Positions 9,832 to 64,000 of a DNA stretch of 64,000 bases are shown here, in pieces. Origin of the DNA: Bacteroidaceae bacterium. Its GTDB lineage: Bacteria; Bacteroidota; Bacteroidia; Bacteroidales; Bacteroidaceae. The stretch is from contig JAFRTL010000022.1 of NCBI GenBank assembly GCA_017427065.1, positions 1 through 64,000 of the forward strand. The letters are read 5' to 3'. The notes beneath the pieces are model-generated. The model was not told the DNA's origin, did not search any database, and saw only the letters and a program-made list of their open reading frames with translations. Each line of letters starts with the position of its first letter. Position 1 is the first letter of the stretch. The translations under genes were made by a program, and so were the position numbers.

Positions 9832-9839
9832 GAAAAAGT

Positions 9840-9872: not shown

Positions 9873-9898
9873 TGGCACATAAATTAATCGGCATTTTT

Positions 9899-11089: not shown

Positions 11090-11092
11090 AAG

Positions 11093-11123
11093 AAGAGAGG
11101 CTCCCGTTAAGGAGCCTCTCTTT
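11093..11123. terminator. Bidirectional terminator
   Basis: The arms AAGAGAGGCTCC and GGAGCCTCTCTT form a 12-base stem with a six-base loop. T-rich sequence follows on the plus strand and the A-rich left flank gives T residues on the minus strand. It sits between the convergent NPP and LUD genes, inside the last few bases before the LUD stop. Confidence 0.8.
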
Positions 11124-11124
11124 A

Positions 11125-44135: not shown

Positions 44136-44160
44136 ATATGCTAAATTTTGAACAAAATAA

Positions 44161-44185
44161 GGGCCGACACAGTGAGTGCCGGCCC
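44161..44185 (-). terminator. Hairpin between arsC and the porin gene
   Basis: GGGCCGACAC and GTGCCGGCCC form a ten-base stem with one mismatch around AGTGA; on the minus strand TTATTTTGTT follows. It probably attenuates transcription into the porin gene. Confidence 0.7.
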
Positions 44186-44219
44186 TCACCTCTCTATTAA
44201 ACCAATCTGCTATGAAAAT

Positions 44220-47224: not shown

Positions 47225-47242
47225 TTTCGTAGTTTCTATTTG

Positions 47243-47274
47243 CAAAGGTAGTGAAAAGGAGGCACAATGACAAA
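47243..47274 (-). promoter_or_regulatory. Promoter of the ArsR operon
   Basis: On the minus strand TTTG (47271-47274), 20 bases, TACCTTTG (47243-47250): a full match to the Bacteroidetes consensus, 18 bases before the ATG at 47224. Confidence 0.75.
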
Positions 47275-47339: not shown

Positions 47340-48677
47340 TTATTTCACTTTATAGGCAGCCAAGTATTCCCCATGACGCACATACATGATGCCATTGCTG
47401 ACAACGATGTGAGCCCAATTAGGACCAGATCCCTTAGTAATGCGGAACTCGCTCACCACATCAAACTTATCTTTCGTAGGACGAACTAAGCCCACGAAAC
47501 CTCTACGCTCATCGTAGGTGTAGAGCATGCCATCAGCATAGACCGTTGACCCCTTGCCCTTACCTCCACTCCAAGCCTCGTTGTAGAGGGTTTTACCTGT
47601 AGCGAAGTCTACTGCGACCCAGTTTCCGCTGGTGTTGTTCACCCAGTTGGATCCATAAACCACACCGTCAACGAGCACATAGCCACCATGATGGGTGCTA
47701 AGGTCGTCGTTTTTCCATGCCACGCTGACGCTCTTCAGGTCGTCTGCCAACTTGAAGGCTGTAGTATTGATGCCATAGCCCTGTGAGAAGACCAGGATAC
47801 CGTCCTTGAAAATAGGACCATTAGGGCAGATGTTCTCCCAAGGTGAAGATGGATACCATCCAGTGGCTGTCCACTGAATCTCACCAGTTTCCACATCGGC
47901 ACCATAATAGAAAGTATTTGTGCCACCTACAATCTGGCGTTTGCCATTCCATGTGATAAGGGTCGGCTGCACATAGTTGCGAGATTCGCCTAAAGAACGC
48001 GACTTCCAGATTTCTGCGCCCGTTTCTTTGTCGAGAGCTACAATGGTGGTTTGGTTGCCTCCAGGACTGTAAATCACCTTATTGTCGACCACCAGAGGAC
48101 ATTCGGCAGTTCCCCAATTTCCTGTGGTGCTGCCATACTTGGCAGTTCCATCTACCGTCCACACGATGCTGCCATCAGCAATGTTGATGCAAGCTATCTC
48201 ACCCATGCCACTAATGACATAGGCCTTACCGTCAACGATGGTCGGTGTAGTACGCGTTTCAGGATAGCTGTCTTTCCAAGGCTTTCCATAAGAGGTTTGA
48301 TAGAGGGTCTTGCCAGTGCTGTCAATGGCGAAGAACACTTCCTGAGTCTTGTCTTCGTTCATGCCAGTAATATAGACAGTACCACTTAATACGGCTGGAC
48401 TTGAATAGCCCTGCACCAAATCCGAATTTTCCCAAATCAGCTGAGGTCCGCCTTCTGGCCATTGTTTCAACAATCCGCTTTCAGCACTATAGATGCCATC
48501 GCGATTAGGACCACGGAACTGTGTCACATCCTGATCAGACGAGAAGCTGATAGCTACAGTCTGCATTTCATTACCAGAGTTCTCCACGACGTTGGCTTTG
48601 GCATTGTTGCCACAACCAGTGGTAATGCCCGAACATGCAATTGTCATGCTAAGGCAGAAAAACTTAAAAATACGCAT
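47340..48677 (-). CDS. PQQ-like beta-propeller lipoprotein, paralogue 3
   Basis: A 445-residue exported protein; ITTGC near residue 22 makes it a probable lipoprotein. TQFRGPNRDGIYSAESGLLK then QWPEGGPQLIWE opens the propeller; blade motifs such as IVALDKETGAEIWKSRSLGE and VAVDFATGKTLYNEAWSGG are PQQ-type tryptophan-docking repeats. The last blades (TYDERRGFVGLVRPTKDKFD) are nearly the same as in the two paralogues upstream. True quinone binding is not shown by sequence. It is the last gene of the long minus-strand run. Confidence 0.85.
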   Translation of the reverse strand: MRIFKFFCLSMTIACSGITTGCGNNAKANVVENSGNEMQTVAISFSSDQDVTQFRGPNRDGIYSAESGLLKQWPEGGPQLIWENSDLVQGYSSPAVLSGTVYITGMNEDKTQEVFFAIDSTGKTLYQTSYGKPWKDSYPETRTTPTIVDGKAYVISGMGEIACINIADGSIVWTVDGTAKYGSTTGNWGTAECPLVVDNKVIYSPGGNQTTIVALDKETGAEIWKSRSLGESRNYVQPTLITWNGKRQIVGGTNTFYYGADVETGEIQWTATGWYPSSPWENICPNGPIFKDGILVFSQGYGINTTAFKLADDLKSVSVAWKNDDLSTHHGGYVLVDGVVYGSNWVNNTSGNWVAVDFATGKTLYNEAWSGGKGKGSTVYADGMLYTYDERRGFVGLVRPTKDKFDVVSEFRITKGSGPNWAHIVVSNGIMYVRHGEYLAAYKVK

Positions 48678-48698
48678 AGTAAGAATATTAGTTGTTTG

Positions 48699-49961
48699 TT
48701 ACTTCACTTTAAATGCCGCCATATATTCACCATGACGCACGTACATCACACCTCTATTAATAACGATGTGAGCCCAACTTGGACCGGAACCTTTGCTCAC
48801 GCGGAATTCACTTACCACATCGAACTTATCTTTTGATGGGCGCACTAACCCCACGAATCCTCTGCGCTCATCGTATGTATAGAGCATGCCATCAGCTGCA
48901 ACTACAGATCCCTTGCCTTTACCTCCACTCCAAGCAGTGTTGTAAAGCGTCTTGCCTGTATTCCAATCTATAGCCACCCAGTTGCCAGAGTTGTTGTTTA
49001 TCCAATTGGAACCATAGACTACGCCATCTATCAGCACATATCCACCATGATGTGTGTCTAAGTCATTAGTCTTCCACACTTTTGATGCTGCAGTCATAGA
49101 GTCATTGAGTTTCACCAAATAGCCACCAGTGTCATAGCCTTCAGAGAAGAACAGTTGGCCATCCTTAAATAGCGGAGCATTCGGAGCTATGTTCTCGTAG
49201 GTGTTCGGACTTGGCCAATCAGTAAAAGTCCATTCAATGTCTCCATTGTCTGGATTAATACCAAACAATACCTGTTCGAGGCCTCCGATGATCTGACGCT
49301 TCCCGTTCCACGTCACGAGTATAGGGGAAATATAGGCACTACCGGCACGAAGTGACTTGGCTTTCCAAATCTCCTTGCCCGTTTCTTTGTCAAGAGCTAC
49401 CATCGCCGTCTGGCTTCCACCAGGAGTATAGATGACCTTGTTGTCATACACCAGCGGACACTCTGCAGTACCCCAATGACCTGTCTTGCCTCCATAGGTA
49501 CTTAGTCCATCGACCTTCCACACGATCTTACCATCGGCTATGTTGATGCAAACCACTTCACCACTACCACTTACCACATAAGCCTTGCCATCAACGATGG
49601 TAGGTGTGGTGCGCGTCTCTGGATAGGCCTGGTTCCAAGGCTTACCGTAAGCCACCGTATATACCTTTTTACCATCAAGCGAATAGGCATTAAATGTCTC
49701 TGCCGACTCATTCTCATTCATTCCAGTGACGTAGAGTTTGTCACCTACTATCACAGGAGTGGAATAACCCTTACCTACATCGTTGGTTTCCCACAGCATC
49801 TCAGGACCATCTGCAGGCCACTGTTTCAACAATCCTGTTTCTGCATACTGACCGTCACGTGCGGGACCACGGAAGGTATTCATGTCTTGTGCTGAAATAC
49901 CCAGCACGCAAAAGTTCAAGACTACGATACCTAAAACTTTCTTTTTAATTAAGTCATTCAT
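48699..49961 (-). CDS. PQQ-like beta-propeller exported protein, paralogue 2
   Basis: A 420-residue protein with a signal peptide (IVVLNFCVLGISA, then QDMNTFRGPARDGQYAETGL). Blade motifs: MVALDKETGKEIWKAKSL, FGINPDDG-like FGINPDNGDIEWTFTDW and VAIDWNTGKTLYNTAWSGG. It lacks a lipobox, unlike paralogue 3, so it is soluble in the periplasm or released. The C-terminal quarter is almost the same as in its neighbours, which indicates recent duplication or gene conversion. Starts 19 bases after the paralogue upstream. Confidence 0.85.
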   Translation of the reverse strand: MNDLIKKKVLGIVVLNFCVLGISAQDMNTFRGPARDGQYAETGLLKQWPADGPEMLWETNDVGKGYSTPVIVGDKLYVTGMNENESAETFNAYSLDGKKVYTVAYGKPWNQAYPETRTTPTIVDGKAYVVSGSGEVVCINIADGKIVWKVDGLSTYGGKTGHWGTAECPLVYDNKVIYTPGGSQTAMVALDKETGKEIWKAKSLRAGSAYISPILVTWNGKRQIIGGLEQVLFGINPDNGDIEWTFTDWPSPNTYENIAPNAPLFKDGQLFFSEGYDTGGYLVKLNDSMTAASKVWKTNDLDTHHGGYVLIDGVVYGSNWINNNSGNWVAIDWNTGKTLYNTAWSGGKGKGSVVAADGMLYTYDERRGFVGLVRPSKDKFDVVSEFRVSKGSGPSWAHIVINRGVMYVRHGEYMAAFKVK

Positions 49962-49980
49962 TTATTTATAAATTTAGTTG

Positions 49981-51267
49981 TTATTTAATTGAAAAGGCGG
50001 CAAAATACTCACCATGCCGAATGTACAATACTCCGTTATTGATAACAGGATGAGCCCAGCTGGGACCAGAACCTTTGGTGATACGGAATTCGCTAACTAC
50101 ATCGAATTTCTCACGACTAGGTTTAACAAGTCCTACGAAACCACGACGTTCATCGTAAGTGTAGAGCATGCCATCACAGTAGATGATAGAGCCTTTGCTC
50201 TTGCCACCACTCCAAGCGTTTTCCCACAACGTCTGTCCTGTATTCCAATCAATAGCTACCCAGTTTCCGCTAGTATTGTTTATCCAGTTAGAACCATAGA
50301 TCACACCATCAAGTAGAATCTGATGGCCATGATGCGTGTCAAGATCTTCATTTTTCCATACAAGTGACACTGCCGTAGCATCATCATTAAGCTTCAGCTT
50401 CATAGCTCCCATATCATAGCCATTGGAAATGAAAATCTCACCTTCATTATATATAGGAGTATTAGGAGCTATAGACTCAAATCCTCTGGAACGATCTTCG
50501 GAATTGCGTCCCCAGTCGTTATATTTCCAAACGATATGTCCATCGTCAGGATTCACACCGATCACTGTGTTTTGCGTTACACTGACTATCTGTCTATGTC
50601 CATTGTGCGTCAGCAGTAAAGGAGATGTATAATTACTCTGCTCATGCAATGACTCAGACTTCCACAGCACAGAGCCATCAGCCTTGCTTAAAGCGACCAT
50701 GGTGGTCTCATCGCCTCCAGGCATGAAAACTACCTTGTCATCATAGATAAGTGGGCATTCTGCAGTGCCCCAATTACCAGTCTTACGTCCAAACAATTTA
50801 TCGCCCTCAACTTTCCAAACGATGCTGCCATCATTGGTCTGAATACATACCACATCGCCTGAACCGCTGATGACATAGGCCTTGCCGTTTTCAATGGCAG
50901 GTGTAGTTCTGGTTTCTGGATAGGACTTTGTCCATGGCGTACTATAGACGGTAGCGTAAATCTTTTGACCATCAAGAGTGAATGCATAAAACACCTCATG
51001 GCTTTCATCCTCATCCATACCAGTAATGTAGAGTCTATCGCCTACAATAACTGGACTAGAATAGCCCTTACCTATTTCTAAAGTCTCCCATAAAAGCTGT
51101 GGTCCATCTTGAGGCCATTGCTTCAATAGCCCTGTTTCATCGTATTTGCCATCTCGATGTGGGCCTCGCCAGCCATAAATGGTTTGAGCAGTCATACTCT
51201 GAACTCCGATGAGCAAGAATGCGAGTAAACTTAAATACTTTGTCATTTCTTTCATAACCATTTTCAT
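49981..51267 (-). CDS. PQQ-like beta-propeller exported protein, paralogue 1
   Basis: A 428-residue protein with a signal peptide (LSLLAFLLIGVQSMTA then QTIYGWRGPHRDGKYDETGL). WRGPxRDGxxxETGLLKxWP is the entry motif of a propeller family widespread in Planctomycetes, Verrucomicrobia and Bacteroidetes. Blade motifs: MVALSKADGSVLWKSESLHE and VAIDWNTGQTLWENAWSGG. Its ATG overlaps the TAA of the glycosyltransferase gene by one base (TAATG), so translation is coupled. It may bind a redox cofactor or act as a scaffold. Confidence 0.85.
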   Translation of the reverse strand: MKMVMKEMTKYLSLLAFLLIGVQSMTAQTIYGWRGPHRDGKYDETGLLKQWPQDGPQLLWETLEIGKGYSSPVIVGDRLYITGMDEDESHEVFYAFTLDGQKIYATVYSTPWTKSYPETRTTPAIENGKAYVISGSGDVVCIQTNDGSIVWKVEGDKLFGRKTGNWGTAECPLIYDDKVVFMPGGDETTMVALSKADGSVLWKSESLHEQSNYTSPLLLTHNGHRQIVSVTQNTVIGVNPDDGHIVWKYNDWGRNSEDRSRGFESIAPNTPIYNEGEIFISNGYDMGAMKLKLNDDATAVSLVWKNEDLDTHHGHQILLDGVIYGSNWINNTSGNWVAIDWNTGQTLWENAWSGGKSKGSIIYCDGMLYTYDERRGFVGLVKPSREKFDVVSEFRITKGSGPSWAHPVINNGVLYIRHGEYFAAFSIK

Positions 51268-52550
51268 TATGTTAAATCATTGATAATTGTTTCTAACTTG
51301 CTTGCTGCCACATCTATATTATAGCGCTCAGCTGCTAGTTTCTTTGCAGAATGGCTGCATTGCTCCCACAAACCATTTGTAAGGAACAGGTTCTCTAATG
51401 TCTTTGCAAGCGTTTCTGCATCATTAGGCTCATAAATCAAGCCTGCCGTATCCACTATTTCATTGAAAGAACCAATGTAAGGTTCTACTGCTGGAACGCC
51501 TGCTGCGAAAGCCTCAAGCAGATACAGCCCTACACTTTCTTCAAATTGAAGAGGTACTGCTATGACAGAAATCTGTTTATAAAAAGCAGCATGGTGCTCC
51601 CAATTATATGTCTCCTCTATAGTTACATCGCTTTTGTAAGGTGCCAACAGTTTGCGGATTTTGCTTAAAAACGCCTTGTCCTGAGAAGTGTATCCTCCGC
51701 CAATGCGCAACTTCAGTCTTGGAATGGTATTCCATGTCTTCAATAAAACAAAAGCCTCTGCTAAAACTTCTAATCCATCTGACTGATTCATACGATAGAA
51801 AAAACCTATCGTTGGATCTTCTGGATGAGTGTCAATAGAATATTTCTCTATATCTACTCCAGGATAGACTACATGGACAGGTGGCGTATTATTTCCATGC
51901 GGACTCCTGTTTAATAGTGCTATCACCTTTTCTTTATAATACCGACTCGTAGTGATCACTGCATCCGTATATTTCAGATTTTCAGAAATGCCTTGCCAAG
52001 CCAATGCGGCATCCTCCTTGCGAAGTCCGTCTATCCACACTTCTTCATCTTGTGCCAGACACAAAATCTTAAGAGACGGAGCCTTTTCCTTCAATGCCTT
52101 GGCAATGCCAACCAACATAGAAGAGGATATATAAACAGCATCTGGTTGCTCTTTATTTACAATCCAATCAATCATTTCCTGCACCATATTGCCAAAAGTC
52201 ATGCCTTCTCCAGTAATCATAGATAGCGTCATATCTTCCATGCCATCACTGGTAGTGGTACCAGCCATCGACATGGCGATATCAAGCAATGGTTGAGCGC
52301 CAAGAAGTTTATTTAGCCATGCAGGCATAAGTTTGTCCTTAAAGAACTTCTGTCCCACATAATAAGAGGTGGCAGGGAAAAACAGCGGTGTATCCGCTTG
52401 AAATTCCTTCTGTCTCAGTGGGAGATAAATAGGCATGATGACCACCTGATGACCTGCACGTTTCATGGCTTGTGCCATGAGGTTGTCACGGAAGCAATTA
52501 CCACAGTAATAGGCATCTCCTGAACTCGTTATGACGAAAACTATTTTCAT
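51267..52550 (-). CDS. GT4 family glycosyltransferase with an N-terminal CGNC motif
   Basis: A 427-residue GT-B fold enzyme, cytoplasmic. The N-terminus SSGDAYYCGNCFRDNLMAQA MKRAGHQVV is a variant of the UDP-sugar glycosyltransferase start in which a CxxC pair sits in the first loop. The C-terminal half is GT4-like (PTIGFFYRMNQSDGLEVLAE, RLKLRIGGG, and the EX7E-type FEESVGLYLLEAFAAGVPAV). I recall this CGxCxxDN form mostly beside ABC/FtsX genes in other phyla. The donor and acceptor are unknown. It lies between the FtsX permease and the propeller trio. Confidence 0.85.
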   Translation of the reverse strand: MKIVFVITSSGDAYYCGNCFRDNLMAQAMKRAGHQVVIMPIYLPLRQKEFQADTPLFFPATSYYVGQKFFKDKLMPAWLNKLLGAQPLLDIAMSMAGTTTSDGMEDMTLSMITGEGMTFGNMVQEMIDWIVNKEQPDAVYISSSMLVGIAKALKEKAPSLKILCLAQDEEVWIDGLRKEDAALAWQGISENLKYTDAVITTSRYYKEKVIALLNRSPHGNNTPPVHVVYPGVDIEKYSIDTHPEDPTIGFFYRMNQSDGLEVLAEAFVLLKTWNTIPRLKLRIGGGYTSQDKAFLSKIRKLLAPYKSDVTIEETYNWEHHAAFYKQISVIAVPLQFEESVGLYLLEAFAAGVPAVEPYIGSFNEIVDTAGLIYEPNDAETLAKTLENLFLTNGLWEQCSHSAKKLAAERYNIDVAASKLETIINDLT

Positions 52551-52563
52551 GTCATTCTACATT

Positions 52564-55500
52564 CTAGTTTGAAGATTCTCTAACAGCATTGTGACAATTC
52601 CGTTTAACGAACCACCAAATAAGTCCAATAAACAATGCCATGAAAGCCAAACTTTGCAACCATGTGATCCAGTTATTATGGCTGAAGTTATTACAAGTAC
52701 TCAATAACGCCGATACAGTTCCGCTGCAAACGGCATATAGCGGAAGCAAAACATTCTCACGGAAAAGCAATCCTTCCATACGATCCGGTGCATAACCAAT
52801 ACTTTGATATAATCGGATATCCGACTTACGTGCCAATAGGTTTTTACGGATGACTATGATGAAACTCAGGATGCCAAGCAAGATGCCAATACCTCCTAAT
52901 GAAAGAAAAATGCTCAAATAGGTATTGACCAGTTCATTGAAAGTATTCAATCGCTGCGCAGTTGTCACCACACGTATACCATACTCATTGAGAGCTTGTG
53001 AAAGCAATGTGCTTACTTCCTGAGATTGCTCTGTTTGGATAAGCATAATCTCCGATCCAGAAATTTCTGGCCATACTTCTTTGAATAGTTGCTTGTCCAT
53101 CAGTGCATAGCCCTGGAAGATACCCGTTGCTAATGCTCCAGCTATTAACAGATTCACAGGCTTACCATTATCTTTCTGATAATGCAAGGTATCCCCAACC
53201 GTCATTCCTAAACTCCACATTAAGGATTCTTGATCTACAAGCACAGGATAGACATCACCATTTGCTTTTGTATATTCAGTGAATTCTATAGGTCCTTGGA
53301 CGATTTCAAACGTACTACTTTGTAATTCCTCCATATCTACACCTAAAATGGTTGGTTGTGAGACCTTGTTTAGGTTTAGACAACTGGCATCATCAGCCCC
53401 TAAGCGAAGGGTCTGCATGATAGAAATTCCTGAAGGCAAGGCGTCAAGCGACAACTGATGGCGTCCTTCAGCAGTGTTCAAATCATAATAGACAGGCACG
53501 GTAGTTTCAGCCCATAATGAATAACCACCAGTAGCATTGGTCGGTTTTTGAGAATCCGTCACTTGTTGGCGATTCAGTCCCACAGCAAAAATAGTAAAGA
53601 CACCAAAAGCAAGGGCATAATATGCTCCTCTTTGTTGTTTCATGTGGTAGAAAAGCGTCGCAAAGGTTTGTTTCTCAAGCGTAAAAGCATGGGGTTCAGG
53701 TTTGCTTTTACGAGTGATGTAATATTCTCCCCATAACCCTGCAAGAACAACCAACAGAATACCTAGCAACACAAAAAGATAGAGTGAGTTTACTGAAAGA
53801 ATATTCACTATGAAGACGACAATAGAGAGAATGGTAAAACCTATAGCAGACACCCAAATCCGCTTTCCGCGATGATGCTCTGTTTGTCCTGCTTGTCCAT
53901 CCGTATGAACCGCTTTAGCTATCTGATACCAGAGTAGTCCCAATATGACTATGATACTTACGACAATTCCTGCAATGACAGAAATCCCATCAATATATAT
54001 GCCTAAACTCGATGTCTGTGTTGCTCCTTGCCAAATATTGCCCAGCAACCACATAATAATAGCAGTATACAATATACCAACAATAACCCCCAATATGGTG
54101 GCTATGCAAACAACGGGCAATGCTTCTCTCCAAAGATTCTTTATGATACGCTTGTCTGTATATCCCAATGCTTTGAAAAGTTGTAACTCTCCCCTCCGTT
54201 GCCAAAGCATTTCGCTAAGCGGACTCACAAATAAAAGCAATGCTGAAATGATGATGAAAAAGCCTAATGCAAGGAAGAGACTGGCAAAGTCTATTCCATT
54301 TTTAGCGGCATATAATCCACTCTCACGAGGTTGAATGATTTGTACATCAAACATAGAGAGTTGCAAACCTTCGACCTTTGTGGGATGATCAGAAACACGC
54401 AATGCAGTGGCCGTACCATAATCATTGCTCCAAATATCTTTCATCAAACTGTAGGGCAACAAGGCTTTGGGAGTGCTCCGATAGAGGTTCCAGTACTCTT
54501 CATCCTCGTCGCTAATCAGTGTCATATCCAATGGAAGGTCACTGTCCCAATCCGTACAACGCTCCACATCCGACAATCCTGGAAACTCGGCACTCAATCT
54601 TCCATCTTCAACCAATTGACTTAATGGAACGATACTACGCACTTGTAAACTAACGGAATCTGTCTTAAGGTCTTTCAACCCTTTGGACACATAATAACTT
54701 ACCGTAACTCTGTCGCCCACTGAAGCATGGAGTCTCTGTGCGGTATAATCCGAGAGAATCAGTTCATCGTTTTGAAGGGTATGGCCATCAAACTCCTTAA
54801 TAGCTGTCACAAAAGAATATGGCACAGAGGCGTCTCCTAAACGAATACCATTAGCAAGATAAGTAAAAAGTGGATTGACATGATTATTCTCATGCTCAAT
54901 GTAATCTACCACTGAAGATTGCAAGAAAACACGATCAGTTGTGATTTCGGCATATTCATTCATTTGATGTATTTGGAGTCCAGAATAGGAAGGATTCCAG
55001 GCCTCAGAAAAATCAGTTTCAGAAATAGTTTTTTCCGAAAGTATCAGATTGATTTTACCTTCAACCTCCATGATCTCTGCTATTTCATCACGGCTGACAA
55101 ATATATTTAAAGGTGTGGTTTGTTCATTTTTGAGACTAAGATTGCCACCTTCATCTATGGGTTTTATACCTGTCTGTTCTAATCGTAAGCTGGTGGTATA
55201 ATTATCTGTGACAAATAGAGAACCAGATGGTACCAAACCTCCCTTTGGTAAACGAAGCACAATAGCTTCTGCTGGTGAAAGGTGAAGTTCATCTGCCAAA
55301 GCTTGATTAAGCAATGCACGTCCATACATGTCTTCTCCTTCCAATCCCCATACCATTACTGGAAGTAATTGTCCATTACGTGAGATGAAACCATCCGTTA
55401 GCAAGACGCCTTTCGCTCCTTCTCTAAAGAGCTGTTCCTGCAAGATACTTTCTGATAAGAAAGAGTTTCTTGAGAATATAACAGATTCAACTTTCCCCAA

Positions 55501-55665: not shown

Positions 55666-55673
55666 TGATTATA

Positions 55674-56351
55674 TTATTCTCTTACTAATACCCCATCTAT
55701 CAATGTGACTATCCTTTTAGCTGCATGTGCCGTTTGATCGGAATGCGTCACCATGATGATTGTAGTTTGCAATTTTTTATTTACTAGTTGAAACAATGAA
55801 GCTATATGCTGAGCATTGTCTTTATCCAATTGTCCTGTGGGTTCATCGGCCAAGAGTACAACAGGTTTATTAATCAAAGCCCTACAAACAGCCACACGGC
55901 AAGCCTCTCCTCCCGATAAGGTCAGTGGGAATTGGTTTTCCAACGATGCAATGTTTGTCAACTCCATCAATTGTCTGGCCCAATTGATTTGTTCTTCTGA
56001 AACTTCATTCGCTGAAGCCATTAGTGGTAGAAGGATATTTTGTAACACATTGTATTGTGGCAACAAGCGGTGGTCTTGGAATACAAAACCTATTTTCTTA
56101 TTGCGCACAGAAGCTAAATCTACATTTCCATCCAACAGCGACTGCCCTTCTAGCAGATAAGATCCAGAATCTGGTAAAAGCAAAGTACCTAAGACATTTA
56201 ATAAGGTAGTTTTTCCCGCTCCCGACTGTCCTCTAACGGCAACAAAATCCCCTTGCTCCACTTCGAAACAAAGTTGGCGGAGCACATGATTCATTCGTGC
56301 ATTTCCGTCTTTAAAAGACTTACTGATATTTTTGAGTTCAAGCAGTGCCAT
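55674..56351 (-). CDS. ABC ATP-binding protein, LolD/MacB type
   Basis: A 225-residue ATPase. Walker A GQSGAGKTTLLNVLGTLLLP, Q-loop FVFQDHRLLPQYNVLQNILL, signature LSGGEACRVAVCRALINKP, Walker B VVLLADEPTGQLD and VTHSDQTAHAAKR. The ADEPTGQLD and the LLPQYNV segment place it with LolD/MacB/FtsE transporters. It is the energy source for the 1033-residue permease downstream. It sits 23 bases after the propeller lipoprotein gene. Confidence 0.95.
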   Translation of the reverse strand: MALLELKNISKSFKDGNARMNHVLRQLCFEVEQGDFVAVRGQSGAGKTTLLNVLGTLLLPDSGSYLLEGQSLLDGNVDLASVRNKKIGFVFQDHRLLPQYNVLQNILLPLMASANEVSEEQINWARQLMELTNIASLENQFPLTLSGGEACRVAVCRALINKPVVLLADEPTGQLDKDNAQHIASLFQLVNKKLQTTIIMVTHSDQTAHAAKRIVTLIDGVLVRE

Positions 56352-56374
56352 AATACGGTATTAAACGTTAAACA

Positions 56375-57517
56375 TTAAGATGCTCCAAAGCAAAGCAGCG
56401 TACCGCGTGTCGTCAGTATGAAGAAATGGTCTTTGATTACTGCAGGAGAACCTAAAATCTGCTCACCTGTATCGTATTCCCATTTCAGAGAACCATTTTT
56501 CGCATCAAGGATGGAGACGATACCCGTACTAGTACAAACAATGACCTTATCATCACATACTAAGGGAGAACTATCACCTGTATCGCCTTTCAGCATATAT
56601 TTCCAAAGCACATCTCCAGTTTTCCTACTGATAGCGACTAAGTGCCGACTATCAGGAAGTACATACACGGCATCATCAGACACGGCAGGGACAGAGGTTA
56701 AAGATCCATCGGCATCAGTGGCTTCTACAAGCATCTTATGAGTATTGATCTTCCCATTCTTCAATTCAAGTTCATAGACATCCCCTGCATAATCGGCCAC
56801 ATAAGCATGCCCATCTTTTATGGCAGGTGAAGCAGGAATATAGGCTTGCACTTCCAAAGAGTCTGTCTGGATGCCTGTCTGACAATCTATCAGACGTAAC
56901 CAAGCATCGCATCCACCAAACAACACATGGTTCTGCCATATAGCTACTGCACCATTGATGTAGTATCCCGATTCAAAATGATTAAGTTCATTGCCATGCT
57001 CTTGATCGACCACATACATATAGTTGTCGTAGCTTCCGAAAACCACAGCTTTTTGTCCTTTATAATCTACTAGATTAGGAGTCGCAGAGATTTGCCCCAA
57101 AGTTTCAAATGTCCATAAAGTATCGGCACGCTGCAAATCGATAGCCTCTAAAATTCCATCTATTCGTCCGATATAAAGCACACCATCACGGATGATAGGC
57201 GTAGCTTCTACACTGGTCTTCATGTCATAATCAAAAACAAGTTCTCCCGAAAGGTTCACGCCGAACACATGGCCCCGCCGATTGACCCAATAGGTGACCT
57301 CATTATATACAATAGGCGACGAAACGGTACGTATACCATCTTTATAACTCCATAGTAATGTAGGAGATTCTGGTAAATTCAGAGATGTATAACCACTCAT
57401 AGCCGCATCTGCGCGATAAAAAGGCCAATCGGTCGTAAAATTATAGCCAACTGGTTCTCTTCCGCTGCATGCCACAAGGGTTAAGAGCAACAAACTATAT
57501 ATAATGTATTGTTTCAT
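56375..57517 (-). CDS. PQQ-like beta-propeller lipoprotein
   Basis: A 380-residue lipoprotein (MKQYIIYSLLLLTLVAC, lipid cysteine at 17). The propeller starts WPFYRADAAMSGYTS and has repeats such as LEAIDLQRADTLWTFETLGQ, VAISRKTGDVLWKYMLKGD and SILDAKNGSLKWEYDTGEQI. It belongs to the BamB/PQQ-like class but is not close to the three downstream paralogues. The start at 57517 is set two bases after the upstream stop. Being just before the ABC pair, it could be its periplasmic partner; it may equally be an electron carrier. Confidence 0.85.
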   Translation of the reverse strand: MKQYIIYSLLLLTLVACSGREPVGYNFTTDWPFYRADAAMSGYTSLNLPESPTLLWSYKDGIRTVSSPIVYNEVTYWVNRRGHVFGVNLSGELVFDYDMKTSVEATPIIRDGVLYIGRIDGILEAIDLQRADTLWTFETLGQISATPNLVDYKGQKAVVFGSYDNYMYVVDQEHGNELNHFESGYYINGAVAIWQNHVLFGGCDAWLRLIDCQTGIQTDSLEVQAYIPASPAIKDGHAYVADYAGDVYELELKNGKINTHKMLVEATDADGSLTSVPAVSDDAVYVLPDSRHLVAISRKTGDVLWKYMLKGDTGDSSPLVCDDKVIVCTSTGIVSILDAKNGSLKWEYDTGEQILGSPAVIKDHFFILTTRGTLLCFGAS

Positions 57518-57519
57518 AT

Positions 57520-58485
57520 TCAATCTTCTAAATACAAAGCACCAGTAGGACAAAGCTTGGCGATGTCTTCACTGACATGTGCGCGGCTCTCATCGGGAAT
57601 AACCACTTGCATGCCAAAACCTCGCCCTTTGAATGTAAAACCATCCTTGGTATTATAGACACACAACCCGCAACGAATGCACTTAGCCGGTTCAAACCAC
57701 AAACGTCCCACCACGTGTTTCTTCACTTTAAAAGGAAGGTCGGATGACACTCCATAACGCGGAGACTTGATACCGCATTCATCAGCCAACTTCCTAAGCT
57801 TACATGCTTCCTGAGCCGCACAAGCGCAATGAAGGCAATTGGATGGTACGTCTGTACTGACTTTCAGCCACTCTTTCTCCTTTGGAGAAAAATGTCCGAG
57901 CTTTGAAGTGAACATTTTGGCTTTCCCTTTTGGTAAAGGATTGGTATTAGGATCTGGATCTGGTGCCTGGCTCATCTCTCGGATAATCTCTCGAATCTCT
58001 ACATGCTTATCAACCATGCCACGACGGCAAACCTTTTCACAAGGGGTTTTGGGACAGTCGTCACATCCAAGTGTTGGCAAATCAAAGGCTGTGGCTATAT
58101 ACCTCTTGGCTTCTGAATAACGATTGGTATCATAATACCACAGCACGCGCTCCACATTCAGTCCCTTCGGACAAACCGTCGTACAAGGTGCCTCACAGTC
58201 GGCTCGATGGTCACTGAGCAACAATTCCAATGCTATCCGTCGCAGTCCCAAGACATCCTCCGTATCTGTGACAATCTGCATCCCTTCTACAGGATGTGTG
58301 GAACAGGATGGAATCATCTGTCCATTGGCAGCATTTTTAACCATACACACCATGCAAGATGCCATATGCTCCTTCCCTTCAGCATAGCACATGGAAGGGA
58401 TTCGCTTACCTAAACGGTTAGCTATCTGCCACAAGGTTTCTTGTTCTTGTACCTCTACCTCAATATTGTCTATCGTAATCTTCAT
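57520..58485 (-). CDS. Iron-sulfur electron-transfer subunit (NuoG-N-terminus/Fer4_20-like)
   Basis: A 321-residue cytoplasmic protein with several iron-sulfur sites. Residues 1-80 are a plant-type [2Fe-2S] domain (PSMCYAEGKEHMASCMVCMV). Residues about 85-165 have SDHRADCEAPCTTVCPKGLN and LGCDDCPKTPCEKVCRRGMV, the 4Fe-4S arrangement of GltD/dihydropyrimidine dehydrogenase-type electron subunits rather than of NuoG. Near 220, NCLHCACAAQEACKLR is a further Cys cluster, and the end is a ferredoxin-like KCIRCGLCVYN and KLCPTGALYLED. It starts two bases after the NuoEF-like gene and should take electrons from it. There is no H-cluster or molybdopterin domain. Confidence 0.85.
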   Translation of the reverse strand: MKITIDNIEVEVQEQETLWQIANRLGKRIPSMCYAEGKEHMASCMVCMVKNAANGQMIPSCSTHPVEGMQIVTDTEDVLGLRRIALELLLSDHRADCEAPCTTVCPKGLNVERVLWYYDTNRYSEAKRYIATAFDLPTLGCDDCPKTPCEKVCRRGMVDKHVEIREIIREMSQAPDPDPNTNPLPKGKAKMFTSKLGHFSPKEKEWLKVSTDVPSNCLHCACAAQEACKLRKLADECGIKSPRYGVSSDLPFKVKKHVVGRLWFEPAKCIRCGLCVYNTKDGFTFKGRGFGMQVVIPDESRAHVSEDIAKLCPTGALYLED

Positions 58486-58487
58486 GT

Positions 58488-60875
58488 TCAATTCTTTATA
58501 GGAACTTTCTTTATCGCATTGAAGCTGCATTCATTGATGCAAAGCCCACACTTCACACATTTATCCACATCAATGGTATGCTGCTCATAAGGTGTATAAG
58601 CAATCGCATCGGAAGGACAAGCCTTAGCACACTTGGTACATCCCATGCAGTCCTCTGTAATCACATAGTTGATCATATCCTTGCAAGTACCTGTACGGCA
58701 AATACCTTCGATATGCTCATCATACTCGTCACGGAAATACTTCAACGTGGACAAAACTGGATTTGGAGCCGTCTTGCCGAGTCCGCAGAGTGCTGATTTC
58801 TGTACACTCTTTGCCAGTTCTTCCAATTTGACAATATCTTCGGGCTTACCCTTTCCTGTACAAATCTTGTCCAGCAAATCGAGCATGCGTTTCACACCCA
58901 CACGGCAGAAGGTACACTTTCCACAGCTCTCATTCGATGTAAATGTGGTGAAGTAACGAGCCACATCGACCATGCAACTGCTTTCTCCAAGTACCACCAA
59001 TCCACCGGAACCCATAATGGCATCCAGTCTCTTTAACGCTTCATAATCCACTTTCACATCACATTCGCTGGCAGGAATACAACCACCAGATGGACCACCT
59101 GTCTGCACAGCTTTCAGTTTTTCTCCTCCTTCTACGCCACCACCGATGTTCTCGATAATCTGATTCAATGTGGTGCCCATGGGGACCTCAATCAAACCTC
59201 CGTGGTTCACTTTGCCAACTAAGGCAAAGACTTTGGTTCCCTTACTGCTCTCTGTGCCATACTTGGCATACTCAGCTGCTCCATGATGAAGAATATAAGG
59301 AATCTGACTGTATGTTTCCACATTATTGATCAATGTAGGACATCCATATAAACCCGAAACGGCTGGGTATGGTGGACGTAGTTTGGGGAAGCCGCGTTTT
59401 CCTTCAATTGAAGAAATCAAAGCTGTTTCTTCACCACAGACGAATGCACCGGCACCTTCAAATAAACGTATGTCGAAAGAGAAATCTGTACCTAAAATAT
59501 GATCTCCGATAAACCCTTTCTCTCTACACATCTCCAATGCTTTTCGGATGCGGATGACAGCTTGTGGATATTCTGCACGGATGTAGAAGATACCATTCGG
59601 CGCCCCTACTGCATAGCCGGCAATTACCAGTCCTTCTATCACACGCAGCGGATAAGATTCCAGCAGAATACGATCCATGAAAGCCCCTGGATCGCCCTCG
59701 TCACCATTACAGATGACATACTTCTTAGGATTGTTTTGCAACGCCACCATCTGCCACTTACGTCCCGTAGGAAAACCTCCACCACCACGTCCACGAATCC
59801 CACTTTGAAGCACCGTGTTTATAACTTCCTCACGCCCCATTTTCGTAACGGCTTTCTTCAATGAATCAAAACCACCACGAGCCATATACTCCTCGATATC
59901 CAGAGGATTCATCTTACCATAGCCTTCGGTAGAGATGCGCAACTGTTCCTCAAAGAAATTATTAATGGTACGTGTGCGATGATCCTCATTTAGGAACGCA
60001 CTACTTTCCCAAGCCTCATCCGTCTGGAATTGATTCACTTGATGGAACAGCATGTTCTTCCACTGACGCAGTTTACTCTTTGGCTTGAAATGTTTCATCA
60101 GAATCTCACGCACATCGGTAGGCTTCACATTCGGATAGCGGAAAATTTGTCCATCAGACATAGCTACATCAATCAAAGGTACTTGGTTGCATGCTCCGAC
60201 ACAACTGACTGGTTTAATTCTCACATCTAAACCCAAAGTTTGTGCTTCGGAAGTCACTTTCTGATAGATTTCAGCGGTACCACTGGCCTGACAACAATTT
60301 TCCATGCCCAAACGAATCTCGCCCTCGGCTTGATCCTCTCCTTCTTCAGCATGTCGCTTCTCTTGTTGTTCAGCATAGATACGGAAAGCATCAATCACTT
60401 CCTTCACCCTACCCGGTTGTACATGTCCATAAATCTTTTCATCTATCTGTACTACAGGTGCCAATGCACAGACACCCAAACAGGCAATCTTCTCAATAGA
60501 GAACTCTCCATCAGCAGTGGTTATGCTCTCTCCGTCCATATGCAATTCACGTCTGAAGGCATCATAGACATTATCCGAACCTTTCACATGGCATGCAGTA
60601 CCATTACAGATCTTGATGACGTGCTTGCCGTAAGGAATATGTCGGAAAAGCGAATAGAATGTCGAAACACTAATGAGTTGGGCACGATCAATTTCCGTTC
60701 GTTCATAGACTCGTTCCAACACATCAGAGCGCAGATAGTTAAACTCCTCTTGCAATGCCTGCAATAGTGGTATCACAAGCTCGCGAGTGGTCCCAATCCT
60801 GTCGATGATAGCATCTGTACGTGCCATCAAAGCAGCTTTCTCTTCTGCAACTTTCGTCTTACAATTATCACACAT
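58488..60875 (-). CDS. NuoE-NuoF fusion, HydC-HydB type NADH-oxidising subunit
   Basis: A 795-residue cytoplasmic flavoprotein that fuses parts normally split over two genes. Residues about 1-165 are a NuoE-like [2Fe-2S] domain (CNGTACHVKGS, ACLGVCALAP). Residues about 185-275 are a second thioredoxin-like [2Fe-2S] domain (ENCCQASG, SCVGACNQVPLI). Residues about 320-690 are NuoF-like, with GRGGGGFPTGRKW for FMN, NGDEGDPGAFMDR for NADH, AGAFVCGEETALISS and 4Fe-4S ligands ESCGKCTFCRVGV. The tail holds two ferredoxin sites, CMGCTKCAKACPSD and CVKCGLCINECSFN. This is the layout of HydB plus HydC in electron-bifurcating enzymes. It starts two bases after the membrane propeller gene. Confidence 0.92.
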   Translation of the reverse strand: MCDNCKTKVAEEKAALMARTDAIIDRIGTTRELVIPLLQALQEEFNYLRSDVLERVYERTEIDRAQLISVSTFYSLFRHIPYGKHVIKICNGTACHVKGSDNVYDAFRRELHMDGESITTADGEFSIEKIACLGVCALAPVVQIDEKIYGHVQPGRVKEVIDAFRIYAEQQEKRHAEEGEDQAEGEIRLGMENCCQASGTAEIYQKVTSEAQTLGLDVRIKPVSCVGACNQVPLIDVAMSDGQIFRYPNVKPTDVREILMKHFKPKSKLRQWKNMLFHQVNQFQTDEAWESSAFLNEDHRTRTINNFFEEQLRISTEGYGKMNPLDIEEYMARGGFDSLKKAVTKMGREEVINTVLQSGIRGRGGGGFPTGRKWQMVALQNNPKKYVICNGDEGDPGAFMDRILLESYPLRVIEGLVIAGYAVGAPNGIFYIRAEYPQAVIRIRKALEMCREKGFIGDHILGTDFSFDIRLFEGAGAFVCGEETALISSIEGKRGFPKLRPPYPAVSGLYGCPTLINNVETYSQIPYILHHGAAEYAKYGTESSKGTKVFALVGKVNHGGLIEVPMGTTLNQIIENIGGGVEGGEKLKAVQTGGPSGGCIPASECDVKVDYEALKRLDAIMGSGGLVVLGESSCMVDVARYFTTFTSNESCGKCTFCRVGVKRMLDLLDKICTGKGKPEDIVKLEELAKSVQKSALCGLGKTAPNPVLSTLKYFRDEYDEHIEGICRTGTCKDMINYVITEDCMGCTKCAKACPSDAIAYTPYEQHTIDVDKCVKCGLCINECSFNAIKKVPIKN

Positions 60876-60877
60876 AA

Positions 60878-62686
60878 TCAGTTGGCAGCTACACAATAAA
60901 TACTCTCGTTGGTTCTAATAACCATCTTCCCATCGGTAAAGGCCGGCGTGGCAAATGTCTTTTCTCCCGTATCAATGGTATTGATGAGTGTGGCATCTTT
61001 GTTTGCCGAGAAAATATAGACCTTCCCTTCTACACTGGCCAGATAAACTTTGCCTTCCACAATCATTGGAGAGGAATAGAACTGTACCCCTAAATCATGC
61101 TCAGCAAGCAATTCCCCTGTCTTTGTATCAAATGTGGCCAATACCCCATAACTGGTAGCTATAAACAACACATCCTTCGTAGCCGCAGGGCTGGATACTT
61201 CGGGCAGATATTCGTTCGATTCCCAAACCAGCTGACCGTCTGTGGCATTGATGGCCACCATCTTGGCGTTCTCACTGGCACCGAAGACGATGCCGTCCGA
61301 TGCACAAGCACTTGCCCCCACCTCACCACTCATGCAGCTGACCTGCCAAAGTTGTTCTCCATTACCAGGATTGTATGCCGTAATGTTCGGATTACCCATT
61401 ATAATAAGTTGTGGTTTATTATCTATGTAAGCAATCATCGGAGATGCCCATGTGGCTCTCTCTGAACGGTTTTTCGTCCATACGGTATTTCCATTAGCCA
61501 AGCTTAAAGCCATCAGTTTCGGAGAAGAATCATTATCGTATTGCACGATAACAATATTGCCATAGATCAACAAGGAAGAAGCAAAGCCATAATGATTGTC
61601 GGGCACACCTAGATTCTTTGCCCAAAGCCGATTGCCCTCCATGTCGGCACAGATAATGTCACCCGTTGCAAAGATGGCACATACTTGATTCCCATTCGTA
61701 GCCACTGTCGAGGCTGCCAAACCAGTATCGTCATTCACACGAGGCATGGCAGATGGAGAACCCGAAATGCCCGATGCATCGAGTTTCCATTTTTGCTCAC
61801 CAGTATTGATGTCATAACAATACAGTTCACGGGAATTATTGTCCGCTCCTGTGAAGAACACATTACGACCGTTGATTACTGGAGAATTGTAACCAGCTTT
61901 AGGAACTGCCGTCTTCCACAAAATGTTGGTGCCAGCCTGTAAGTTCCAAGAAGTAGGAATGCCACGTGCAGAGGATTGTCCGTTCGACGTATTGCCGCGG
62001 AAAGCGTTTTGAGTCACTTTGGAAACAGGCACTTCTTCCAGAGCAGTTTCAGCATCAGAAGCATCCTCTGCGTTTTCCTCAGTCGCATCATTGGCATCCG
62101 TTTCTTCCGTAGTTTCAGCATCAGCCAATATATCACCTGGTAGTCTGTCGGTAGTGATGTCATCTGGATCTGACATATCCTCTACGACGAAATCGCCAGA
62201 TCCACCATCGTCTGCTTTCTCTGTCAACGACTTATAATAAGGTGAAGAGAAGAAAGCAAATCCTAAGGCTACCGCTGCCAATCCCACGATTCCCCAATTA
62301 ATGTATTTACGGGATTTCGATTTTAAGAGCCAGTCGTCTATTGGATCAATCTCCTTGTCGGGTATTTCTTTGGTATTCTCAAAATAGAATCGAAGGCATA
62401 CCATCAATATACCGATCAATCCCAACAAGATATAGATACCTGCTTTCAAGTGTCCAGACTGTACGAAATAGGCTTTACGGGCCAACAGATCAAGTTGTCG
62501 GATTTGTTCCTGCAGTTCCACGTTCTCCGAATTAGCATCATTCAAAGACTTAAGGGTTTCCACTACCTCTGTTTGTAATGGAGTTACATCCCTTACTTGA
62601 AAGTAATTGATGATCAGCATTGCCGAAAGTAACAAAATGAAGACAGAAGTTACAATGGCAATATTTCTAAACACGTCTTTTTTCAT
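60878..62686 (-). CDS. Membrane-anchored PQQ-like beta-propeller with coiled coil
   Basis: A 602-residue protein. Three hydrophobic helices lie at about 9-28, 83-102 and 131-150; between the first two is a coiled coil (LKSLNDANSENVELQEQIRQ LDLLA). Residues about 158-215 are an acidic, Ser/Thr/Glu-rich linker (ETTEETDANDATEENAEDAS). The propeller (about 235-602) has PQQ-type blades such as LYCYDINTGEQKWKLDASGI and LMALSLANGNTVWTKNRSER. The topology should place the propeller in the periplasm. It overlaps the polyferredoxin gene by ATGA, so the two proteins are probably made in equal amounts and act together. Confidence 0.85.
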   Translation of the reverse strand: MKKDVFRNIAIVTSVFILLLSAMLIINYFQVRDVTPLQTEVVETLKSLNDANSENVELQEQIRQLDLLARKAYFVQSGHLKAGIYILLGLIGILMVCLRFYFENTKEIPDKEIDPIDDWLLKSKSRKYINWGIVGLAAVALGFAFFSSPYYKSLTEKADDGGSGDFVVEDMSDPDDITTDRLPGDILADAETTEETDANDATEENAEDASDAETALEEVPVSKVTQNAFRGNTSNGQSSARGIPTSWNLQAGTNILWKTAVPKAGYNSPVINGRNVFFTGADNNSRELYCYDINTGEQKWKLDASGISGSPSAMPRVNDDTGLAASTVATNGNQVCAIFATGDIICADMEGNRLWAKNLGVPDNHYGFASSLLIYGNIVIVQYDNDSSPKLMALSLANGNTVWTKNRSERATWASPMIAYIDNKPQLIIMGNPNITAYNPGNGEQLWQVSCMSGEVGASACASDGIVFGASENAKMVAINATDGQLVWESNEYLPEVSSPAATKDVLFIATSYGVLATFDTKTGELLAEHDLGVQFYSSPMIVEGKVYLASVEGKVYIFSANKDATLINTIDTGEKTFATPAFTDGKMVIRTNESIYCVAAN

Positions 62687-63939
62687 ACTGTCTGAACTTT
62701 TTTTCTTTGTATAATTACTCCTTTATTCTGTGGACAATAACTGAAACATTTACCACACGACACACAATTCTTGTGGTCTATTTCATATTCTTTGCGCGTA
62801 CGTCGCACAGAAAGATTTATCAACTTCAATCCTATTACCAGACCGATCAGCGCCCCTACGATGGTTCCATAAAACCTGAAATCTGCCTGAACGGCATCAT
62901 TACTTTGCTGCAACTCTTCCACGGTTCTTCCTTGCGCATAGAAGGCTTCTACTTCTGGCAGCATCTCATTGTCGGGATGGGCTTCCTGTATCTGCACTAA
63001 TTCATACAGACGGACTTCTTTATTGGCATAACTCAGATTGGCAGAGGACATGCGCAACAGCAAGGCTCCCAATACCATCAGCAGAGGCAAGCCTACGGCA
63101 TATTTCAAAACACGGATAACACCATCGTAACGTGCTTCTGTATTATTATTCTGATAAGGAGGAAGGACGGCATCTACCGGACAAGAATTGTGGCAAAGCT
63201 GACAATTCACACAGGTCTTTTCCGTAATCTTTATCTTCCATATAGAGACAGATGAGAAGAGACTCAACAATGCGCCATAAGGACAAAGGAAACGGCAGAA
63301 AGGACGGCCAGTGAAAATAGACATAACCAACAAGATTCCTCCGAAGGTAATAAGGCCAAAATCTCCTCCTAAACGGAAGATCCCTATAAAAGGATCAAAC
63401 TGGCAGATGATGAATCTACTGCGTGTAAGCGCATACAGCAAAGCAAAGAACAAGTAAATCCAAGGAATCACGCTCAATGCTGTACAAACTGACTTCGATA
63501 TACGATAGTTCTTGACATTCAGCAACTCTTGCAAAGCTCCAAATGGACAGACACCTGCGCAGAATACCCTACCAAACAAAAAGGCAAAGATAATAGGCAA
63601 AAGGAAGAACAACAGCACCACTAATGGCAGGTGATACGTGTTGTCCACCATCGCTAAAGCAATATTCTGAATAGAGCCGATGCTACATACACACCCCTCA
63701 CGGAAAAAGCCAAAATAAGCGACGGAAATCAGAGAGGTGATAATGATAGGACCACGTGTGCGTTTCTTATAAGCAGCCCACGTGATAAGGCTCATCAGTG
63801 CGACTAGCAGCACGATGTCCAACACATTCCAGAAGGTCTCGTAAGGCACAAAATAATCGCGCTCCGGATACTGATATCCAGATTCGAATTCTGGCCTTGG
63901 AAAACGGCTGACAATGATCATTAACAAATTCTTCATCAT
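62683..63939 (-). CDS. NapH/NosR-type membrane polyferredoxin
   Basis: A 418-residue inner-membrane iron-sulfur protein. Six or so helices; loop motifs FGRVFCAGVCPFGALQELL and RPFCRFLCPYGALLSLFSS (CxxxCP pairs) are the NapH/NosR hallmark, with further Cys-rich loops FFREGCVCSIGSIQN. Two ferredoxin-type sites are present: CVNCQLCHNSCPVDAV near residue 240 and CVSCGKCFSYCPQNKGV near the C-terminus. NapH-like proteins carry electrons from quinol or ferredoxin to periplasmic enzymes. It is coupled by ATGA overlap to the genes on both sides. ATG at 63939 or 63936 is the start. Confidence 0.88.
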   Translation of the reverse strand: MMKNLLMIIVSRFPRPEFESGYQYPERDYFVPYETFWNVLDIVLLVALMSLITWAAYKKRTRGPIIITSLISVAYFGFFREGCVCSIGSIQNIALAMVDNTYHLPLVVLLFFLLPIIFAFLFGRVFCAGVCPFGALQELLNVKNYRISKSVCTALSVIPWIYLFFALLYALTRSRFIICQFDPFIGIFRLGGDFGLITFGGILLVMSIFTGRPFCRFLCPYGALLSLFSSVSIWKIKITEKTCVNCQLCHNSCPVDAVLPPYQNNNTEARYDGVIRVLKYAVGLPLLMVLGALLLRMSSANLSYANKEVRLYELVQIQEAHPDNEMLPEVEAFYAQGRTVEELQQSNDAVQADFRFYGTIVGALIGLVIGLKLINLSVRRTRKEYEIDHKNCVSCGKCFSYCPQNKGVIIQRKKVQTV

Positions 63940-64000
63940 GCGTGATCCTTTAGTTTATAAGCCGTACCATAAGGGACACGTTGGATGGCTCCCGAAGCAC
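63936..64000 (-). CDS. Partial CDS, C-terminus only, unknown
   Basis: The last 20 residues of a minus-strand protein (ASGAIQRVPYGTAYKLKDHA), then TGA at 63936-63938, overlapping the ATG of the polyferredoxin gene as GCATGATG. The coupling shows it is part of the same operon. The stretch is too short to name a family. Confidence 0.5.
   Translation of the reverse strand, partial: ASGAIQRVPYGTAYKLKDHA

Follow-up and report, generated by a model that had tools for sequence, protein, structure and literature searches.

The electron-bifurcating Bfu family, which is defined by its BfuBC core and includes HydABC and the Stn/Nfn-Bfu enzymes (Schut et al., 2022, PMC9304861; PMC10482914; Furlan et al., 2022, PMC9499530), offers the closest comparison for the locus described here. 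In the sections of these papers available to us, only 8 of 1558 BfuB sequences lack the histidine of the B2 site, which non-bifurcating homologues do not have (PMC9304861), the same site is a zinc site with three cysteines and one histidine that is not kept in Nqo1 (Furlan et al., 2022, PMC9499530), and the hallmarks given for Stn are a thioredoxin-like domain, a C-terminal ferredoxin domain, and a zinc linker (PMC10482914). The third-substrate partners described for the family include hydrogenase, Nfn, Fdh, Wor, Por, Bam, and Nuo; 17 BfuB clades were left without a function, and undiscovered third substrates were predicted, in the accessible part of the survey (Schut et al., 2022, PMC9304861). 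Here we describe an operon of Bacteroidaceae bacterium (GenBank assembly GCA_017427065.1; 2.5 Mb, 83% complete) that lies partly within the window, by which we mean the whole stretch of DNA analyzed, namely the first 64,000 nucleotides of the 92,694-base contig JAFRTL010000022.1 (G000:C20:1-64000 in our numbering). Its redox half appears to be a new variant of the Bfu family, very likely so for the core on the basis of residues. The best explanation of the whole, to which we give a probability of roughly 0.5, is one system composed of a redox/export module and a terpenoid module. No description of such a union of redox and terpenoid genes was found in the literature searched, in which most subscription papers were out of reach.

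The sequence-only reading of the window had placed an operon of eleven genes on the minus strand between 47340 and the window end. Eleven complete genes were confirmed at 47340-63939 on that strand in the order it gave, overlapping or no more than 23 bp apart, and the families that it named (NapH-like protein, propellers, NuoE/NuoF fusion, 2Fe-2S/4Fe-4S partner, LolD-like ATPase, FtsX, and GT4) were recovered. The C-terminus that it left unassigned at the window end is present and belongs to TatFer193, but the eleven-gene extent did not hold, and a unit stopping at the window edge is ruled out: the operon runs upstream to a histidine kinase and comprises 22 genes, all on the minus strand, from C20:76106 down to 47340, adjacent genes overlapping slightly or lying within 23 bp of each other. 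The window edge splits it, the remaining half lying on the same contig up to C20:76106. The order of transcription is histidine kinase (C20:75078-76106), LytTR regulator (C20:74313-75071), the ferredoxin Fer242, a radical SAM protein, a DUF116-polyprenyl synthase fusion, CycA, CycB, the propellers Prop402 and Prop473, and an NHL propeller, followed by TatFer193, the NapH-like protein, MemProp, NuoEF, NuoGN, LipProp, the ABC ATPase, FtsX, GT4, and propellers A, B, and C. The terpenoid module, with the radical SAM protein, the DUF116-polyprenyl synthase fusion, and two squalene-cyclase-like proteins, and the Tat-type ferredoxin lie in the half beyond the window edge, and the link to MIP and CobW genes described below is outside the coordinates considered by the sequence-only reading. 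A 94-bp gap separates propeller C from a downstream ArsR-family gene (46868..47245, minus strand), which perhaps starts a separate transcription unit. Scans for promoter-like (34 sites vs 41.8 in shuffles) and terminator-like sequences (18 vs 13.9) gave no useful signal, and a phage family search returned generic matches only.

Nine solved chains gave the best matches to the NuoE-NuoF fusion NuoEF (58488..60896; 802 amino acids, aa), at E values from 3e-206 to 2e-162. Five of these are named HydB or Fe-/NiFe-hydrogenase B subunit and the rest NfnB, NADH dehydrogenase, HoxF, and 51 kD subunit, while formate dehydrogenase or complex I chains matched more weakly (1e-109 and below). The core for reduced nicotinamide adenine dinucleotide (NADH) and flavin mononucleotide (FMN) was recognized by PF01512 and PF10589, both over cut-off. 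The cysteines of the B1 4Fe-4S cluster (C658, C661, C664, and C704), the B2/zinc site (C641, H728, C733, and C738), the C750-C790 set of the C-terminal 2x4Fe-4S domain, and the 2Fe-2S cysteines of the thioredoxin-like domain (C201/C202/C232/C236) and of BfuC (C97/C102/C139/C143) were each kept in 33/33 sequences. The B2/zinc residues were placed through alignment to solved enzymes and the published spacing (PMC9304861), and the position of the B2 site that is published as variable is cysteine in 14 of the 33, threonine in another 14, and some other residue in the remaining 5. Judging from these residues, we have little doubt that the fusion is a Bfu-type core in which BfuC is joined to BfuB. 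The earlier assignment to HydBC-type subunits was right and can be put more strongly, the electron-bifurcating ligand set being present, and because it is present ferredoxin is expected as a second carrier, which the sequence-only reading did not mention. What by eye resembles a complete Rnf operon also lies in the same genome (L011, G000:C13:44001-62080, at 5733-11383), so that a connection between the pools of NADH and ferredoxin probably exists there already.

The locus thus shares with the Bfu family, as far as the accessible text of the three papers describes it, the FMN/NADH core, the thioredoxin-like 2Fe-2S domain, and the zinc/B2 Cys-His site, and in addition the C-terminal 2x4Fe-4S domain, the HydC-type 2Fe-2S domain, and a BfuA-like partner. 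Unlike in that family, BfuB and BfuC are fused here, and the partner lacks a catalytic domain. This partner, NuoGN (57520..58530; 336 aa at this locus, with lengths near 515-545 aa in several other families), is a BfuA/NuoG-N-like iron-sulfur protein by its family matches and conserved cysteines; it matches the N-terminus of the alpha subunits of Bfu-type enzymes, and no catalytic domain was found in it.

The outlet differs as well. None of the described third-substrate partners was encountered at the locus, where the partners are a NapH-like membrane protein, a Tat-type ferredoxin, and propellers, and the first two would form the outlet. This pair has no counterpart in the accessible part of the Bfu survey, and the words NapH, polyferredoxin, and propeller are absent from its main text (PMC9304861). 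The NapH-like polyferredoxin (62683..63939; 418 aa), with six transmembrane-like stretches, two CX3C motifs, two 4Fe-4S motifs, and 15 cysteines invariant in 38 sequences, is encoded two genes upstream of NuoEF. Between them lies MemProp (60878..62686; 602 aa), a membrane-anchored beta-propeller protein with three transmembrane-like stretches that is syntenic in relatives. TatFer193 (C20:63936-64517; 193 aa; C-terminal end in the window at 63936..64000) is a NapG-like ferredoxin of the twin-arginine translocation (Tat) type, whose RR and 17 cysteines were invariant in 39 sequences. TatC was found in 13/13 cyclase-positive genomes vs 10/15 other genomes tested of the family. The transmembrane stretches, the CX3C and 4Fe-4S motifs, and a preceding gene for a Tat-type multi-cluster ferredoxin are shared with the NapGH/NosR-type polyferredoxins. 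Unlike the latter, the proteins here score below curated cut-offs (for TatFer and NapG, 23.6 bits vs 269) and are combined with propellers and a soluble NADH module, and genes for nitrate or N2O reductase are absent from the operon. A c-type heme wiring was rejected for the exported proteins, as they contain no CxxCH. The architecture, that is, a soluble iron-sulfur/FMN module, a NapH-like membrane protein, and a Tat-type ferredoxin, backs the previous suggestion that NADH electrons would reach the periplasm, and we consider a conduit of this kind probable. In three redox loci, those of G1088 (L173), G859, and a third, a gene stands between NHL and TatFer whose small product (70-107 aa) is Tat-leader-like and has its cysteines in a cluster; the cysteine cluster at the C-terminus of NHL (C20:64527-65582) in the window's family may be the fused counterpart of this protein.

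The arrangement was compared over 60 related regions, in which order was counted at readable loci only, a further 0 to 3 loci per pair being cut off by the end of the contig or region. One genome can account for several of the regions as separate contigs, and regions and rows are not independent. Each successive gene pair between Fer242 and CycB, and between Prop473 and LipProp, was retained in 31 to 40 regions. Within the terpenoid module, the order Fer242-radical SAM was found in 37/37, radical SAM-DUF116/polyprenyl synthase in 38/38, polyprenyl synthase-CycA in 40/40, and CycA-CycB in 39/39 loci. The corresponding counts for the redox module are Prop473-NHL 38/39, NHL-TatFer 37/37, TatFer-NapH 37/38, NapH-MemProp 37/37, MemProp-NuoEF 34/36 (both exceptions resemble extra propeller copies), NuoEF-NuoGN 33/34, and NuoGN-LipProp 31/31, and those for the exporter are LipProp-ABC 22/24 and ABC-FtsX 24/25. 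The operon therefore consists of two modules, redox/export and terpenoid, each with nearly unbroken order wherever it can be read. Both share one region in 28 cases, while of CycB and TatFer 11 regions (some of which reach a contig edge) show only the former and 10 only the latter, and in G1052 and G982 the two modules lie on different contigs. In L140 (G898:C23:72000-91999), the terpenoid module is accompanied by a kinase/regulator pair of its own (47 and 63% identity), by an ABC/permease pair of another kind, and by two propellers that are distantly related, and TatFer is on another contig. The separate sites in some genomes are what adjacency of two or three unrelated units in this genome would lead one to expect, but such chance is highly improbable given the near-universal order in readable regions and the joint occurrence of the modules even at separate sites. 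The synteny proposed as a check bore out a single conserved system, with the NuoEF fusion beside propellers, NapH, ABC, and FtsX across many Bacteroidales families, and we regard one conserved system as almost certain.

CycB was detected in 1/395 genomes drawn over the phylum, the own genome only (E 1e-30), and in 20/399 genomes of the family (E 1e-15). A scan of contigs from named genomes for close CycB relatives returned 19 loci, all labeled Bacteroidales-type. Several record titles name yak, sheep, reindeer, or horse (rumen and horse gut); others carry Tannerella or Prevotellaceae labels, which we take from their naming to be termite gut records. The terpenoid marker (radical SAM, E 1e-60) occurs in 16/344 genomes of Bacteroidales under twelve family labels, and the redox marker (TatFer, E 1e-20) in 58/344, of which 55 match at E 6e-55 or better and the remaining three weakly, at 41-43% identity. 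All of the family labels with the radical SAM marker (12/12) include a TatFer-positive genome, although a p-value for this is only indicative because the number of families sampled was estimated, and joint occurrence holds even where the modules occupy different sites. Outside Bacteroidota, coverage came from the CycB scan of named contigs and from plasmid searches, the redox module having been sought within Bacteroidota. Among plasmids, the best radical SAM match had 29% identity (69 records), and around two such records no partner genes appear in the gene table, which is incomplete; the named cyclase matches were squalene-hopene cyclases (SHCs) at 22-28% identity among the 15 of 52 records listed; and TatFer gave no match.

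The propellers match BamB/pyrroloquinoline quinone (PQQ)-like propeller families, and the NHL protein weakly matches another propeller family. The three exported propellers of the sequence-only reading were borne out: A is WRGP-type (49981..51267; 428 aa), B (48699..49961; 420 aa) and C (47340..48677; 445 aa) are FRGP-type, and C carries a lipobox. LipProp (56375..57553; 392 aa) is a propeller lipoprotein, and Prop402 (C20:67020-68228) and Prop473 (C20:65602-67023) lie off the window. Prop473 is the most conserved, with weak profile matches to tetrathionate hydrolase (E 5e-5), quinoprotein ethanol/methanol dehydrogenases (E 4e-4 to 7e-4), and BamB. The dehydrogenase matches would suit an inward flow, in which exported propeller dehydrogenases oxidize a periplasmic substrate and the Bfu core bifurcates the electrons to NAD+ and ferredoxin, and the accessible part of the survey describes Bfu enzymes as reversible (PMC9304861). 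Prop473, however, matches tetrathionate hydrolase better, and those propellers that match the PQQ alcohol dehydrogenase model score 30 to 64 bits against its cut-off of 480, too low to support membership in the PQQ dehydrogenase family. A PqqC search of the own genome was silent, as were its controls. Sugar-fermenting anaerobes usually must dispose of electrons, which also counts against inward flow. We consider this direction improbable, though the most credible of the alternatives, and on balance favor outward flow. The idea that propellers store electrons found no supporting evidence.

Turning to the terpenoid module, the synthase domain of the DUF116-polyprenyl synthase fusion (C20:70811-72397) has both Asp-rich motifs and is related to geranylgeranyl diphosphate synthases, and seven cysteines of its DUF116 part were invariant in 39 sequences. 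CycA (C20:69948-70814) is cyclase-like, and CycB (C20:68221-69951) keeps DxDDT in 40/40 rows, one contig having been entered twice. CycB is only distantly similar to SHC (E 9e-7; 66 bits vs a cut-off of 431), and the radical SAM protein (C20:72381-73598) scores 45 bits against the HpnH cut-off of 225, far below curated family scores, its nearest solved relatives being SkfB and cytosylglucuronate decarboxylase. Hopanoid operons are generally built around a squalene-hopene cyclase and the radical SAM protein HpnH. The present operon shares with them a class II cyclase with DxDDT, a radical SAM protein, a glycosyltransferase, and an envelope exporter, a resemblance in plan only. With SHC and HpnH scores far below the cut-offs, membership in the hopanoid family was rejected, and unlike hopanoid operons this one has its own polyprenyl synthase, fused to DUF116, and no squalene/phytoene synthase was over cut-off in its own genome (83% complete) or in 6/13 terpenoid-positive genomes. 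These six are at least 96% complete, and the sole weak synthase match among them, in G1120, is to the polyprenyl synthase itself; squalene is therefore unlikely as the cyclase substrate there; as a general substrate it is unsupported in several genomes.

Over cut-off, such a synthase was found in 7/13 terpenoid-positive, 16/27 redox-positive but terpenoid-negative, and 11/40 redox-negative genomes. The resulting enrichment in redox-positive genomes (23/40 vs 11/40; Fisher 0.012), together with the near confinement of the terpenoid marker to redox-positive genomes, might mean that the redox module reduces or hydrogenates isoprenoids at the periplasmic face, with terpenoid products of the operon, carotenoids, and squalene products as substrates. 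In G1095 (L166, G1095:C83, 4598-7024), a squalene/phytoene synthase gene and a gene that by eye resembles a desaturase lie beside a redox operon without a terpenoid module, but on the opposite strand to it. The enrichment may reflect phylogeny or genome size, and 17/40 redox-positive genomes have no synthase over cut-off, 11 of these 17 also having no terpenoid marker. Such reductive finishing of lipids is rather unlikely in our estimate, about as much so as inward flow or slightly more.

A third alternative arises from the genes downstream of the operon, where the order is ArsR-MIP-CobW-ArsC. The MIP channel (45892..46680, minus strand) scores 170.7 bits vs 171.25 in NCBIfam and 148 vs 25 in Pfam; the CobW-family GTPase is at 44776..45861 (minus strand); the ArsR-family gene scores 63 vs 55 bits; and the ArsC-like arsenate reductase (44220-44741) scores 113 vs an NCBIfam cut-off of 174 and has an apparent signal peptide, from which a periplasmic location would follow. 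An exported protein adjoining ArsC (42921-44189) is porin-like by eye, without any Pfam match. MIP (E 1e-60) was found in 18/399 genomes of the family, 16 of them cyclase-positive (Fisher 5e-23, phylogeny uncorrected); G397 and G505 have MIP without cyclase, and G734, G444, G455, and G628 the reverse. MIP was seen in 20 regions. Operon genes are present in 16 of these, and CobW is likewise present in 16; the four regions without CobW stop at a contig edge. Many loci have MIP and CobW as neighbors of the operon on either side. ArsR, MIP, and ArsC also occur together in MIP-bearing ars operons such as that of AqpS in Sinorhizobium, as far as the accessible text shows (PMC4435449; PMC6205960). 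Unlike there, MIP and CobW here travel with the redox/terpenoid operon, mostly without ArsR/ArsC in the regions covered.

The system could accordingly serve to reduce or sequester arsenic or a similar neutral oxyacid, MIP passing As(OH)3 and the terpenoid/CobW part trapping or using it. The MIP distribution would fit, and so would ArsR-MIP after the propellers in G490, ArsC beside MIP in L039, and an ArsC-like gene beside Fer242 in G950. In the distant G1042 (L132/L133), the whole system lies beside ArsA, Acr3, ArsC, ArsR, and an ArsP_1 permease, with a CobW homologue inside it, between cyclase and propellers. The ars-type neighbors at the own locus and in G1042 keep this reading alive. In one survey, each of the 18 MIP-bearing ars operons had MIP as its sole transporter, but MIP channels pass glycerol too (PMC4435449, accessible part). 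Acr3 was found in 0/7 genomes tested, vs matches in 7/14 controls (ArsB not searched), but G734, without any MIP match, lacks Acr3 as well. The window's ArsR/ArsC were matched in only 4/60 regions, many of which barely reach past the operon, and not in five terpenoid-only regions (G952, G1052, G982, G887, and G898). ArsC is below its NCBIfam cut-off, and MIP just below NCBIfam's though well over Pfam's. We judge a metalloid role to be unlikely, clearly more so than reductive lipid finishing.

In the single system that we prefer, the BfuC-BfuB fusion and its BfuA-like partner would take electrons from NADH and reduced ferredoxin (confurcation) and pass them, by the simplest path, from FMN through NuoGN, NapH, and TatFer to NHL and the propellers, which, in the periplasm or at the outer membrane, would reduce an acceptor, apparently without c-type heme. 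The DUF116-polyprenyl synthase would make a linear polyprenyl diphosphate, which the DxDD class II cyclase would cyclize and the radical SAM protein and the ferredoxin Fer242 (C20:73603-74331; 242 aa) would modify. The LolD/MacB-type ABC ATPase (55674..56351; 225 aa) with the FtsX-domain permease (52564..55665; 1033 aa), LipProp, and, where present, GT4 (51267..52550; 427 aa) would finish the product and move it across the envelope, where it might join the redox module as a membrane partner or as one of its substrates. Gene order, conservation, motifs, and co-occurrence were seen directly, from which we infer the direction of flow, the order of partners, the export, and the meeting of lipid and electrons. 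The suggestion that the ABC/GT4 part builds or exports a lipid is consistent with the prenyl synthase and class II cyclase found off the window, but it stands less well for GT4, which is present in only 10/24 loci, namely eight redox sites without an adjoining terpenoid module plus G811 and G687. The YCxNC motif near the N-terminus of GT4, kept in 11 aligned sequences, seems unusual for a glycosyltransferase.

Several observations weigh against this picture. GT4 was not seen at 14/24 related loci that show LipProp and ABC; 12 of the 14 belong to the window's family, at least two of these (G444 and G463) are cut before the FtsX end, and GT4 is present at the window's own locus. The NapH-like protein scores 68.5 bits against the NapH/MauN family cut-off of 213; no cofactor was recognized in any propeller, and these proteins may be enzymes, carriers, or scaffolds; and CxxCH occurs once each in NapH and Fer242, in both inside 4Fe-4S-type cysteine motifs. 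CycB is followed by Prop473 in 30/35 loci, and FtsX by a propeller in only 15/23. The named relatives are records of the metagenome-assembled genome type, and the joint occurrence of both markers in 14 of 16 terpenoid-positive genomes (Fisher 3e-10) is uncorrected for phylogeny, G950 and G952 being terpenoid-positive without TatFer. Moreover, 44 of the 58 genomes with the redox marker lack the terpenoid marker, so that the lipid cannot be the sole partner of the redox module. We lean only slightly toward a functional coupling of lipid and electrons. The boldest form of the proposal, a new class of electron-confurcating enzyme with a heme-free iron-sulfur wire to beta-propeller reductases, and with its own cyclized polyprenyl lipid, neither quinone nor squalene-derived, as the membrane carrier or acceptor in terpenoid-positive lineages, is speculative and would more probably fail than hold.

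The operon offers a concrete candidate for a Bfu third substrate, a transmembrane conduit with periplasmic propellers, the marker of which is present in 58/344 sampled Bacteroidales. If this is true, anaerobes, including some from the rumen or horse gut, would possess an outlet for reducing power that needs neither hydrogenase nor quinone, and the terpenoid half predicts a cyclic lipid of a so far unknown class, which five genes could suffice to make.

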